Assembly: GCA_027492795.1 (NCBI GenBank)
Contig: JAPUEB010000026.1
Span: 1-64,000 of the forward strand
Source of the DNA: Chryseobacterium sp.
GTDB lineage: Bacteria > Bacteroidota > Bacteroidia > Flavobacteriales > Weeksellaceae
Direction of reading: 5' to 3'
DNA length: 64,000 bases
Within the stretch, counting starts at the first letter, position 1. Every line of letters begins with the position of its first letter. The notes beneath the pieces were generated by a model. The model saw only the letters and a list, made by a program, of their open reading frames with translations, was not told where the DNA came from and searched no databases. Below are positions 5,024 to 27,833 of this stretch, in pieces. The position numbers and the translations under genes were made by a program.

Positions 5024-5070
5024 TTTTGCCACAAATGCACGAATTAATTATTCATGAGTTTGCTGCATTT
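5024..5070. repeat. TGCCAC palindromic repeat, copy A (degenerate)
   Basis: The left arm TTTGCCACAAATGCACGAAT is related to copies at 7951, 19662 and 29692. The right arm (TTCATGAG...GCTGCATTT) is eroded. Confidence 0.5.
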
Positions 5071-7950: not shown

Positions 7951-7999
7951 TTTTTGCCACGAATGCACGAGTGAACCTATTAATACACTTTGATGCTAT
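7951..7999. repeat. TGCCAC palindromic repeat, copy B (degenerate)
   Basis: The left arm TTGCCACGAATGCACGA is nearly identical to copy C at 19662; the right arm has decayed. Confidence 0.5.
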
Positions 8000-8534: not shown

Positions 8535-8804
8535 TTACTTTCTCAAACCAAGTTCAGCGATAATTGCTCTATATCTTGTGATATCTTTTTTCTTAAGATA
8601 GTCCAACAATGCTTTTCTTTTACCTACCAGTTTCACCAAAGATCTTTCTGTGTTGTAATCTTTGTGGTTGGCTTTCAGGTGACCAGTTAAATGGTTGATT
8701 CTGTAAGTGAAAAGCGCCACTTGTCCTTCTGCGCTTCCTGTGTTTTCTGCTTTACCTCCGTGCTTTGCGAAGATTTCTGATTTTTTTTCTGATGTTAAGT
8801 ACAT
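8535..8804 (-). CDS. rpsO: 30S ribosomal protein S15
   Basis: Primary 16S rRNA-binding protein of the small subunit platform. The 89 residues are the family length. Typical segments are visible: GGKAENTGSAEGQVALFTYRI, the loop HLKANHKDYNTERSL, LVGKRKALLDYLKKKDITRY, and the C-terminal LGLRK. It forms a single-gene unit with a near-consensus promoter (8841-8870) and a terminator (8485-8516). In E. coli rpsO is followed by pnp; here pnp lies about 1.2 kb away on the same strand but downstream of a separate promoter, with two plus-strand genes between them. Confidence 0.97.
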   Translation of the reverse strand: MYLTSEKKSEIFAKHGGKAENTGSAEGQVALFTYRINHLTGHLKANHKDYNTERSLVKLVGKRKALLDYLKKKDITRYRAIIAELGLRK

Positions 8805-8840
8805 GCAAATATTATTTAATGATTATTATGTAACGAGGTG

Positions 8841-8870
8841 CAAAAATATAACTTTTTAGTGAACCGGCAA
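8841..8870 (-). promoter_or_regulatory. promoter of rpsO
   Basis: On the minus strand: TTG (8868-8870), 19-bp spacer, TATTTTTG (8841-8848). Both elements and the spacing fit the Bacteroidota primary sigma consensus. Transcription should start near 8835, giving a leader of about 30 nt. Confidence 0.75.
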
Positions 8871-18354: not shown

Positions 18355-18419
18355 GCACTCCTACGGAGTGCTGTTTTCGTCAAAATCATTTCTACACATA
18401 TAGAACTCCTATGGAGTTC
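18355..18419. repeat. pair of CTCC-TAY-GGAG palindromes
   Basis: GCACTCC TAC GGAGTGC (18355-18371) and GAACTCC TAT GGAGTTC (18403-18419): two related short palindromes about 48 bp apart in an intergenic gap. Confidence 0.55.
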
Positions 18420-18515: not shown

Positions 18516-19199
18516 CTACTCATAATGTTGAAAAATCCCAAAATCACTCGGCGTCCAAAGTGCGGCTTTTTGTCCGGCTGCTTTTAGGCCATTATTCGTC
18601 CAAGTGTTGCAGGTATCTAAAAAGCTGTAGCTACTTTTTGCATCGTAGAAGGCATCATTTTTTCCGTAAACGGCATCGGTTTTTATCAGAATTACTTTTC
18701 CTGCAGCATCTCGATCGAATTTATTTTCAATAAATTTTATCAAATTTTTGTATTGATTTTCTGTAATTAAAATTCTTTTGCAATCCTTTCCCAAAGTCAT
18801 TTTTTCGTAAAAAGTGCAGTGCATCGCCGATTCGCTTAACCAAAACGCAGCTTTGAAAGCGGTAGAAAATTTCAAATCTGCCCAAGTTGGGGTATCCAGA
18901 TAAAAACCTTTGTCGCCCCAACCAATCGCAATATATTTGAAATCTGTTCTTTTGGAAACAGTATTTTCAAATGGAATTTCTTGGCTCCAATCCTTAATTT
19001 CGTTCTTTACAGGAACTACCAAATCGGTGTGAACTCCGTTGGTAAGGATAAAAATTTCTACATTTTTCGGCTCTGTAGTTATTTCGGCGGGAATTTCGAT
19101 AAATGGGATTAAATATGACAAAAGCAAATACATTGCAACGATTCCAATGATTGCCCAAATGCCTTTCAGCACATTAATAACTGCTTTTTTTACATTCAT
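18516..19199 (-). CDS. DUF2459 (TIGR02117) family membrane-anchored protein
   Basis: 227 residues: one N-terminal membrane helix (about 12-33), then a soluble, probably periplasmic, domain. Family marks: ILTNGVHTDLVVPV, FKYIAIGWGDKGFYLDTPTW, SAMHCTFYE, and the C-terminal DTCNTWTNNGLKAAGQKAALWTP. The function of the family is unknown. The Cys/His/Asn residues that align with conserved positions hint at a hydrolase-like fold, but that is only a guess. It is a single gene on its strand. Confidence 0.85.
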   Translation of the reverse strand: MNVKKAVINVLKGIWAIIGIVAMYLLLSYLIPFIEIPAEITTEPKNVEIFILTNGVHTDLVVPVKNEIKDWSQEIPFENTVSKRTDFKYIAIGWGDKGFYLDTPTWADLKFSTAFKAAFWLSESAMHCTFYEKMTLGKDCKRILITENQYKNLIKFIENKFDRDAAGKVILIKTDAVYGKNDAFYDAKSSYSFLDTCNTWTNNGLKAAGQKAALWTPSDFGIFQHYE

Positions 19200-19300: not shown

Positions 19301-19330
19301 TTGGAAATTTAAGAAATAATAGTATATTTA
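19301..19330 (+). promoter_or_regulatory. promoter of a small basic-protein gene
   Basis: TTG (19301-19303), 19-bp spacer, TATATTTA (19323-19330): seven of eight -7 bases match. Transcription should start near 19337, 17 nt before the ATG. Confidence 0.5.
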
Positions 19331-19353
19331 TTACCGAAATATTTATCAAAAAT

Positions 19354-19437
19354 ATGCGCAAAAACACCAAATCGCAAAAAAGATTCAAATTTCGGGTAAA
19401 AATAGCTCCTAAAAGAGTTCAGCAAAAAAAATATTGA
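19354..19437 (+). CDS. candidate 27-residue highly basic protein, unrecognised
   Basis: A 27-codon ORF in the 546-bp gap between the DUF2459 gene and queG. It starts MRKNTKSQKRFKFRV and ends RVQQKKY; more than a third of its residues are Lys or Arg and it has no acidic residue. It has a promoter with correct spacing (19301-19330), a leader of about 17 nt, and a strong terminator that begins at the stop codon (19436-19473). That arrangement is that of a complete single-gene unit. The composition recalls small ribosomal or RNA-binding proteins, but I cannot name a family. The alternative is a small RNA of about 135 nt in which the ORF is fortuitous. A longer minus-strand frame across the same DNA looks like an antisense shadow. 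Confidence 0.5.
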   Translation: MRKNTKSQKRFKFRVKIAPKRVQQKKY

Positions 19438-19473
19438 TTTTCGGTGAAGTTTCGGCTTCCTGAAAATCTTTTT
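19436..19473 (+). terminator. rho-independent terminator of the small gene
   Basis: GATTTTCGG-GAAG arm (19436-19449, one bulge) pairs with CTTCCTGAAAATC (19456-19468), loop TTTCGG, then TTTTT C TTTTT. It has no other plus-strand gene to serve. Confidence 0.75.
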
Positions 19474-19661
19474 CTTTTTACAGAACCTGTTATTTTTACT
19501 ACAATGATTTTGAAAAACCTTAAAAATACAAATTAAGGTTATGGGATTTTCTCCCTTTTTCTTTCGGCAAAACTTAACAGTTGATACCAAAACCATATTC
19601 AATGTAGTCCAATATTTTGCCGACAAATATTTTTAATTTTACCTTGTTGAATGATTATTAA

Positions 19662-19725
19662 TGCCACGAAATCGCAGATTCGACGAAGCCAATGCACGAA
19701 TAAATTCCTTAGTGCATTCGTGGCA
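19662..19725. repeat. TGCCAC palindromic repeat, copy C (intact)
   Basis: Outer arms TGCCACGAA (19662-19670) / TTCGTGGCA (19717-19725) and inner arms AATGCAC (19691-19697) / GTGCATT (19712-19718). It sits 20 bp past the queG stop and may also act as its terminator. Confidence 0.7.
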
Positions 19726-19745: not shown

Positions 19746-20696
19746 CTATTTTTTTGGTGGTATAACTTCAAAACCCAAAAACTCGATATTCCTTTTCAAT
19801 CCTGCAAATTTTGTCCTTTTCACAGGTGATTTTTTAAAGATTTCAGAAAAAATTTCTTGCGTAAGTTCCTTCCAGTTTTCTTTTCGGAAGTTTTTTAGAT
19901 ATGCATTCGGTTGAAATTTTGGTTGATTGTGCGGCAAAGAAAAGCGGTTCCACGGACAAACATCCTGACAAATATCGCAGCCAAACATCCAATCCTCCAT
20001 TTTTTTGGAAAAATCTGATGGAATTTCGTTTTTCAATTCGATGGTTGCGTAAGAAATACATTTGCTGCCGTCAACAATTTTTTCTGAAACGATCGCATCT
20101 GTTGGACACGCTTCTATACATTTCGTGCAGGTTCCGCAGTGGTCTGTTGTGGGTAAATCGTATTGCAAATCGAGATCGCAGATGATTTCTGCCAAAAAAT
20201 AGAAAGAACCACTTTTTTTGGTAATCAGATTCGCATTTTTTCCCACCCAGCCAATTCCGGATTTTCTTGCCCAACTTCTTTCCAAAACCGGAGCAGAATC
20301 CGTAAAAATTCTACAATGAAAATCCCCGATTTCCTCCTGAAGTTCTGCCACCATTTCCCGTAAAATTTCTTTTATAACTTCATGATAATCCTCACCATAG
20401 GCATATTTTGAAATCTTAAAATTATCTAAAGTTGAAATTTCTTCCTTCGGAAAGTAGTTGTAAGAAAGGGAAATTACAGATTTTGCGTGAGGTACCAATA
20501 AACTGGGATCAAGACGTTTATCGAAATGGTTTTCCATATATTTCATTTCGCCATGGAAACCATTTTTCAAAAAATTTTCGAGCGGTTTCGCGTCTTCCTC
20601 CAAAAAACCGGCTTTGGAAATACCGCAATCCTGAAACCCAAACTTTTTTGCCTTCTCCTTTATCAGTTCCGAATATTTCTGTGCGTTTTGAAACAT
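19746..20696 (-). CDS. queG: epoxyqueuosine reductase QueG
   Basis: Last step of queuosine synthesis: reduces epoxyqueuosine to queuosine in tRNA, using cobalamin and two 4Fe-4S clusters. 316 residues from ATG 20696, the usual start region ([16 protein letters not shown]). Cluster ligands are seen in [12 protein letters not shown] and [11 protein letters not shown]; the substrate-pocket region [17 protein letters not shown] is intact. The frame continues 40 codons upstream to 20816, but that part is read out of a 10-bp tandem repeat array, so it is not protein coding. The upstream gap with the divergent rhodanese gene holds that array. Confidence 0.95.
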
Positions 20697-20731: not shown

Positions 20732-20745
20732 TTTCACAAAAACTT

Positions 20746-20852
20746 GTTTGATAAGGTTTGAAATCGTTTGAAGTAGTTTGATAATGTTCTTTCTCCTCAA
20801 ACAAGTTCAAACTCAATCAAACGATTTCAAACTCAATCAAACAAATTCAAAC
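20746..20852. repeat. 10-bp phased GTTTGAW array with a central inversion
   Basis: Four copies of GTTTGAW start at 20746, 20756, 20766 and 20776. After a 14-bp centre, six copies of the reverse complement follow (TCAAAC at 20797, then WTCAAAC at 20806, 20816, 20826, 20836 and 20846). The period is exactly 10 bp, with 3-bp spacers that vary. Left GTTTGAAATCGTTTGA (20756-20771) is a perfect 16-bp complement of the right half (20817-20832), so RNA or single-stranded DNA could form a long hairpin. Confidence 0.85.
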
Positions 20853-20871
20853 TTTAAACAAACTCTGTGTT

Positions 20872-27411: not shown

Positions 27412-27702
27412 ATGACAAAGGCAGAATTGGTAAACACCATCTCCAACAAATTGGGTACAGAAAAAGGTGAAACACAGAAAGTTGTAGAAGCATTCATGCA
27501 CGAAATTAGAAGCGCAATGTACAAAGGAGACAATGTATATTTAAGAGGTTTCGGTTCTTTCATCATCAAAACAAGGGCAGCAAAAACGGGAAGAAATATT
27601 TCTAAAAACACAGCTATTGAAATCCCTGCTCATAATATTCCGGCTTTCAAGCCATCTAAAACTTTTACAGAGAAAGTAAAAGCAAAAGTAGAGGTAAAAT
27701 AA
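27412..27702 (+). CDS. hup: HU family DNA-binding protein
   Basis: A 96-residue histone-like protein that bends DNA as a dimer. Marks: MTKAELVNTISNKLGTEKGE, VYLRGFGSFIIKTRAAKTGRN, and the arm residues NIPAFKPSKTFTEKVK. The usual GRNPQTG of the arm reads GRNISKN here, as in many Bacteroidota. It is followed after 35 bp by a 31-residue basic protein gene, probably in the same transcript. Confidence 0.95.
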   Translation: MTKAELVNTISNKLGTEKGETQKVVEAFMHEIRSAMYKGDNVYLRGFGSFIIKTRAAKTGRNISKNTAIEIPAHNIPAFKPSKTFTEKVKAKVEVK

Positions 27703-27737: not shown

Positions 27738-27833
27738 ATGCCAAGCGGAAAGAAAAGAAAAAGACACAAGGTAGCAACGCACAAAAGAAAGAAAAGAAGA
27801 AGAGCGAACAGACATAAGAAGAAAAAATCTTAA
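27738..27833 (+). CDS. AURKAIP1/COX24-type small basic protein (mS38/bS22-like)
   Basis: A 31-residue protein, starting MPSGKKRKRHKVATHKRKK and ending RANRHKKKKS, almost entirely Lys, Arg and His. The pattern KKRKxHKxxTHKRKKRxRxxRHKKK is that of the AURKAIP1/COX24 domain. The domain occurs in mitochondrial ribosomal protein mS38 and in short bacterial small-subunit proteins (bS22-like). A ribosomal role is therefore likely by family. It lies 35 bp after hup and is too short for most gene finders. A stem-loop at 27861 may end the transcript. Confidence 0.8.
   Translation: MPSGKKRKRHKVATHKRKKRRRANRHKKKKS

Follow-up and report, generated by a model that had tools for sequence, protein, structure and literature searches.

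We present here a tiny gene at positions 19354-19437 (+) of a 64,000-nucleotide stretch of Chryseobacterium DNA, analysed at its full length and called the window below, which encodes a microprotein of 27 residues with 12 Lys/Arg and no acidic residue. It is a real protein-coding gene, neither a chance open reading frame (ORF) nor a small RNA; this is settled by its conservation in 158 of 246 genomes of one Bacteroidota family, where strong selection acts on it as a protein-coding sequence. By analogy with bS22, bL37 and Thx, we are inclined, on balance, to regard the product as an integral, lineage-specific ribosomal protein. Annotation easily skips tiny basic genes, and solved structures have later shown some of them to be parts of the ribosome. 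The gene occurs in 158 of the 246 sampled species, and the family of its carriers includes opportunistic pathogens.

In the window, the gene lies in a seemingly empty gap, separate from its neighbours, and is equipped with a promoter and a terminator of its own. A complete tiny gene at 19301-19473 had been recognised in the preliminary description, and each of its elements was confirmed. The Bacteroidota-type promoter (19301-19330, +), read directly from the sequence, consists of TTG at 19301-19303, a 19-nt spacer and TATATTTA at 19323-19330. It is followed by the start-site region with a short A-rich leader (19331-19353, +), recognised by base composition across 86 loci; the leader would be about 17 nt long if transcription starts near 19337. 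The ATG at 19354 opens 27 codons (MRKNTKSQKRFKFRVKIAPKRVQQKKY) closed by TGA at 19435-19437, and an intrinsic terminator (19436-19480, +), identified by folding and conservation, begins inside the stop codon with a stem at 19436-19468 and continues with T-runs. The divergent upstream neighbour encodes a DUF2459 protein (18516-19199, -; PF09601, E 3.9e-67) and the convergent downstream neighbour is queG, coding for epoxyqueuosine reductase (19746-20696, -; PF08331 and PF13484). The window contains 1090 reading frames 20-70 aa long, with the first start codon and each internal Met taken as starts. A Lys/Arg content of 35% or more together with 5% or fewer acidic residues is seen in four, and two of these are the microprotein ORF and a true bS22.

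The gene was read at 90 loci in 89 genomes, comprising the 30 best matches and 60 picked to cover genera. The ORF is intact at all 90, which is partly a matter of selection because the source matches were those listed without internal stops. At six loci with a longer reading frame, the peptide was trimmed to the last Met leaving 24-28 residues. The resulting 63 distinct peptides are 25-27 residues long, with a consensus of about MxKxxKSQKRFKxRVKxAPKRxQKKR; each has 11-14 Lys and Arg residues, and Asp or Glu is found in none of them. Glu is absent even though every Lys codon sits one A-to-G step from a Glu codon. Residues M1, R14, K16, A18, P19, K20 and R21 are invariant in the profile of 43 versions (A1). 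A degenerate DNA pattern, used on one genome per species, returned at least 117 stretches; of 117 named loci, 116 gave a peptide (67 distinct) and one gave none, and a single peptide has a frameshifted C-terminus with Asp.

Codon analysis covered 89 loci with 83 different DNA rows, the single 25-residue version being left out. For pairs with 1-5 changes pN/pS was 0.091 in frame, whereas the two remaining forward frames gave 1.15 and 1.23. The synonymous-site excess for which a check had been proposed is thus present between close relatives, as selection on a protein would leave it. With increasing distance of the pairs the ratio climbs to 0.203, 0.269, 0.316 and 0.374, because synonymous sites fill up. 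Entropy averaged 0.47 at the first, 0.43 at the second and 1.03 at the third codon position. According to the preliminary description, frameshifts or stop codons in relatives, together with a kept RNA structure, would have meant a small RNA; what we found lies on the protein's side, synonymous change being common and amino-acid change rare. Codon use was also compared between 86 copies of the gene and 13 bL35 genes from within the family. It is close for Arg (AGA+CGT 0.86 vs 0.91) and Ala (GCT 0.54 vs 0.72) and differs for Lys (AAG 0.08 vs 0.44) and Val (GTA 0.68 vs 0.10); being only partly bL35-like, it does not indicate very high expression.

The promoter pattern TTG-N19-TAnnTTTR proves little by itself, since the window has 14 instances of it where 4.9 are expected. 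In 57 of 86 distinct loci, among them that of the window, the gene is preceded by TTG-N17-21-TAnnTTT, compared with a mean of 3.25 and a maximum of 10 for mononucleotide-shuffled upstream sequence, and TAnnTTT is present at most 45 nt upstream of the gene in 74 of the 86. The promoter pattern is unmatched in 29 loci, including the three Elizabethkingia loci L032-L034, where the gene has an upstream neighbour in the same direction and may be without its own promoter; such a neighbour was seen at four loci of this genus (g23), the fourth being L044. Across the 86 loci, A is present at position -3 in 69%, at -6 in 57%, at -12 in 84%, at -13 in 91% and at -14 in 95%, over a background of 38%. In the window's own start region, positions -3, -6 and -13 are A, whereas -12 and -14 are T. 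In Flavobacterium johnsoniae, A at -3, -6, -12 and -13 is reported to favour initiation and to raise translation (PMC6847099). Taken together, promoter and start region look like those of a Bacteroidota gene that is translated.

The hairpin described at the stop codon is borne out by folding. In the window (19436-19468) it reaches -15.3 kcal/mol with a z of -4.5, none of 200 dinucleotide shuffles being as stable, and T-runs come after it; a simple terminator scan of the window did not have it among its results. A z below -2 was obtained for the 60 nt starting at the stop codon in 59 of 86 loci and was not reached in the other 27, which include at least two Epilithonimonas (g9) loci. For 26 loci, chosen partly for a visible hairpin, pairing extends to 86% of cells, a value reached by 1 of 500 shuffles; both sides have changed in 8 of 14 pairs (2 of 500 as high), and the true register beats slid registers. 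The terminator is thus supported by folding and by conservation together, and as a summary range the promoter, the A-rich start region and the stop-codon hairpin recur in 57-91% of the 86 relatives.

The first seven hairpin bases, TGATTTT (19435-19441), are identical in 26/26 of the chosen loci, which exceeds what base pairing alone asks. This identity, and a short transcript with a promoter and a hairpin, would also fit a small regulatory RNA or a dual-function RNA with a secondary ORF. Such an RNA is very improbable, as the protein is kept while synonymous sites vary, and the conserved parts seen outside the ORF are the promoter, the start region and the terminator. A search of the window against Rfam 15 at the gathering score gave only one tRNA and an S15-Flavobacteria leader, and nothing at the microprotein gene.

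The surroundings of the gene were examined at 59 loci. DUF2459 lies upstream and divergent at 53 of them and queG downstream and convergent at 52. Because the gene usually stands alone between these two, the microprotein should act in trans, and with queG convergent there is in most loci nothing downstream to attenuate. A terminator hairpin placed directly after a short ORF could belong to a leader peptide or attenuator for the downstream gene, and the next downstream ORF of at least 80 aa does run in the same direction at three of the 59 loci (L065, L082 and L090); the same protein is kept regardless of this arrangement, and we find the attenuator scarcely credible. A small cationic peptide may also be antimicrobial or toxic, the more so as free bS22 and bL37 peptides, both ribosomal, inhibit growth as well (PMC10085706). 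Against this, no signal sequence is visible by eye, no export or immunity gene was recognised among the window neighbours and the gene is kept in one place between ordinary genes, which makes such an activity a quite improbable explanation.

The translated-similarity search proposed for the peptide found it widespread in the family, with BLAST matching 162 of the 246 genomes when E values up to 1 are admitted. Profile A1 finds the microprotein at E ≤0.01 in the 158 genomes referred to above, which belong to 11 of 33 genera, with a single match per genome in the carriers listed. Among the 80 stretches listed for the degenerate DNA pattern, the carriers are Chryseobacterium, Elizabethkingia, Kaistella, Epilithonimonas, Cruoricaptor and a Weeksellaceae bacterium. 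The gene was not found in 22 of the 33 family genera sampled, a few of which are represented by incomplete genomes, and the genus sample consists of the window's own genome alone. Outside the family nothing convincing was seen in the order sample of 296 genomes (best outside match E 0.027) or in the class sample of 395, where one match at E 0.001 (G814) was judged to be due to chance, as it spans 18 of 26 positions and no tiny acid-free ORF surrounds it in that frame. In the phylum sample (296 genomes) there were seven matches, all of them inside the family.

Some copies are damaged. The one in G023 is frameshifted and the one in G136 has an internal stop, both being counted within the 158, and these breaks could be sequencing errors or real loss, which cannot be told apart; the copy in G071 is cut by the contig end. 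A divergent copy beside queG was sought at 24 non-carrier loci, and only G031 (g32) shows a decayed remnant of the gene, its sister G050 carrying the gene. A similar string in G035 was judged to be chance and is antisense to DUF2459. Seven non-carrier loci keep DUF2459 beside queG with no intact gene (two in g7, two in g5 and one each in g19, g2 and g32, the last being that of G031). In both g5 and g32, genomes with and without the gene are found.

The history of the gene was read against a queG tree of 82 rows, which is midpoint-rooted only and leaves out seven of the 64 carrier loci used, these having no queG. All carriers in the tree fall inside one group of 72 rows (support 95/85), which holds non-carriers too. 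Presence and absence require 8 changes, compared with 21 for shuffled labels, and at least three are forced by well-supported branches. The simplest reading would be one gain followed by losses. Because the gene is missing or decayed in several lineages, and apparently was lost several times, any ribosomal role must be dispensable. Such repeated loss is a natural experiment on how components are acquired and shed by the ribosome or by a different RNA-binding system. A fuller scenario, which we put forward tentatively and hold to be rather less probable than not, is that of an undescribed ribosomal protein family born once in the DUF2459/queG spacer of the common ancestor of Chryseobacterium, Elizabethkingia and Kaistella, fixed there by selection and lost several times since. 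If true, a new part of the ribosome was added and then discarded within one bacterial family.

Comparison with known families returned no Pfam, NCBIfam or PDB sequence match; the few hits listed had E of 0.45 or more and involved 1-2 of the 43 members. Profile A1 had no match to PDB sequences at E ≤10, in a kind of search that is hard for short basic peptides. The PDB search is nevertheless able to find a basic peptide of 31 residues, because it found the bS22 of the window (27738-27833, +), which matches three PDB sequences, none of them identical. This is the comparable basic gene of the window that had been pointed out as resembling mS38/bS22, and the assignment holds, as it shares 29 of 30 residues with the F. 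johnsoniae chain 7jil_5. It has no NCBIfam match, and the Pfam COX24_C model misses this version of bS22, since none of 70 family genomes, the window's own included, has a match that passes the cut-off of the model.

bS22 (mS38/eL41-like, AURKAIP1/COX24) is like the microprotein in being about 30 residues long, very basic and free of acidic residues. It differs in occurring also in actinobacteria and spirochaetes, and in the window its gene closely follows an ORF ending at 27702. A common origin of the two was rejected, since in hhalign 114 of 300 column-shuffled profiles scored as high, neither COX24_C nor PDB gave a match and bS22 is a separate gene of the window. bL35 shares the string KS..KRFK near the N-terminus with the microprotein but has 65 residues, and bTHX (Thx) shares with it a basic core of 26-27 residues and a patchy presence in the family. 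The microprotein could then derive from a ribosomal protein already known, as its relic or paralogue, for example from the bL35 N-terminus (MPKLKTKSGAKKRFK...) or from Thx, and its profile does beat most column-shuffled controls (22 of 300 as high for bL35, 12 of 300 for Thx). Neither figure reaches significance once three families have been tried, hhalign assigns probabilities of 1-1.6% and the match to bL35 is 8 columns long; common origin with either was rejected. PF01632 (bL35) and PF17070 (Thx, with a MGKGD-type N-terminus and GSYGK.RPRK) matched none of the 43 members, bL35 is present as a separate gene in 13/13 genomes tested and the Thx signature is missing from the microprotein while Thx itself is present in the window's genome. 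We consider such a descent improbable.

Replacement of Thx by the microprotein was rejected as well, as 20 of the 24 carriers checked also have Thx. This comparison used 70 genomes, with the frameshifted copy of G023 counted among the carriers; the four carriers without Thx are G012, whose weak match (E 0.06) was counted as absent, and three g23 genomes. Thx is itself patchy, PF17070 being found in 39 of the 70 family genomes at E ≤0.1 and over the cut-off in 35; the three Elizabethkingia (g23) genomes tested have no match, and two matches in the window's genome exceed the cut-off.

Parallels also come from ribosome structures. Cryo-EM revealed small basic proteins missed by annotation in the ribosomes of Borrelia, bS22 and bL38 (PMC10618245), and bS22 and bL37 in those of Cutibacterium (PMC10085706). 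bL37 of Actinobacteria is, like the microprotein, small and lineage-restricted, and it was identified as ribosomal via the structure (PMC10085706), but it belongs to another phylum and gave no match to profile A1 in the PDB search. bL38, known from F. johnsoniae and Borrelia, is a small protein of the Bacteroidota ribosome that was not annotated as such in Borrelia (PMC10618245); the Borrelia protein differs in that its description includes beta-strands and a short helix and its residue numbers run past 50 (PMC10618245), and it also gave no PDB-search match to A1. Six conserved strings of the microprotein were contained in no paper among the open-licence full texts covered, and nothing on the gene appeared among the literature listed on Elizabethkingia small proteins and start-site maps or on Chryseobacterium ribosome structures. 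On present evidence the microprotein appears to be a new family of a known kind.

Small lineage-specific ribosomal proteins form a class that the microprotein suits by its size, charge and lack of acidic residues and by the isolation and restricted range of its gene. A basic, acid-poor sequence selected as protein, such as this one, is typical of ribosomal proteins, though insufficient to define them. No ribosome data for the family were found, and no sequence link to any known ribosomal protein emerged from the Pfam, NCBIfam, PDB and hhalign comparisons; contact with the ribosome or with RNA is suggested by composition and analogy. In the mechanism we propose, the R14-x-K16-x-A18-P19-K20-R21 core and the Lys/Arg-rich ends would bind structured RNA, and the protein would thread into a groove of 16S or 23S rRNA and stabilise the ribosome, as bS22, bL37 and Thx do. 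A part of the ribosome seems to us a better guess than an enzyme or a regulator. The same composition and conservation would also suit a microprotein binding RNA or DNA off the ribosome, such as an RNA chaperone, a nucleoid component or a partner of a ribonuclease or RNA polymerase, and both the patchy loss and the Lys and Val codons unlike those of bL35 agree with an accessory role. Known peptides that are so small, basic and free of acidic residues are mostly ribosomal, and no partner gene was recognised beyond the usual two neighbours; we therefore think a function off the ribosome unlikely, though less so than the other alternatives considered.

Several repeats and one RNA element were noticed along the way in the window. 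Between the microprotein gene and queG, an inverted repeat at 19691-19724 contains GTGCATTCGTGGC; this 13-mer is also present at 7956-7968 and 5028-5040, one copy with a mismatch, so that three were found against 0.01 expected, and the copies resemble a small dispersed repeat. The spacer between the L,D-transpeptidase and DUF2459 genes contains two short palindromes (18355-18371 and 18403-18419) that share the core CTCCTAYGGAG at a distance of 48 bp; they are possibly a REP-like element, CTCCNAYGGAG occurring twice in the window against 0.06 expected. From queG to the rhodanese gene (20741-20856) there are dense direct and inverted TCAAAC/GTTTGA repeats, with a 20-bp unit in three copies and inverted arms of 48 nt. 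The S15-Flavobacteria ribosomal leader (RF03161) lies at 8802-8848 (-), at the start of the ORF 8535-8804.
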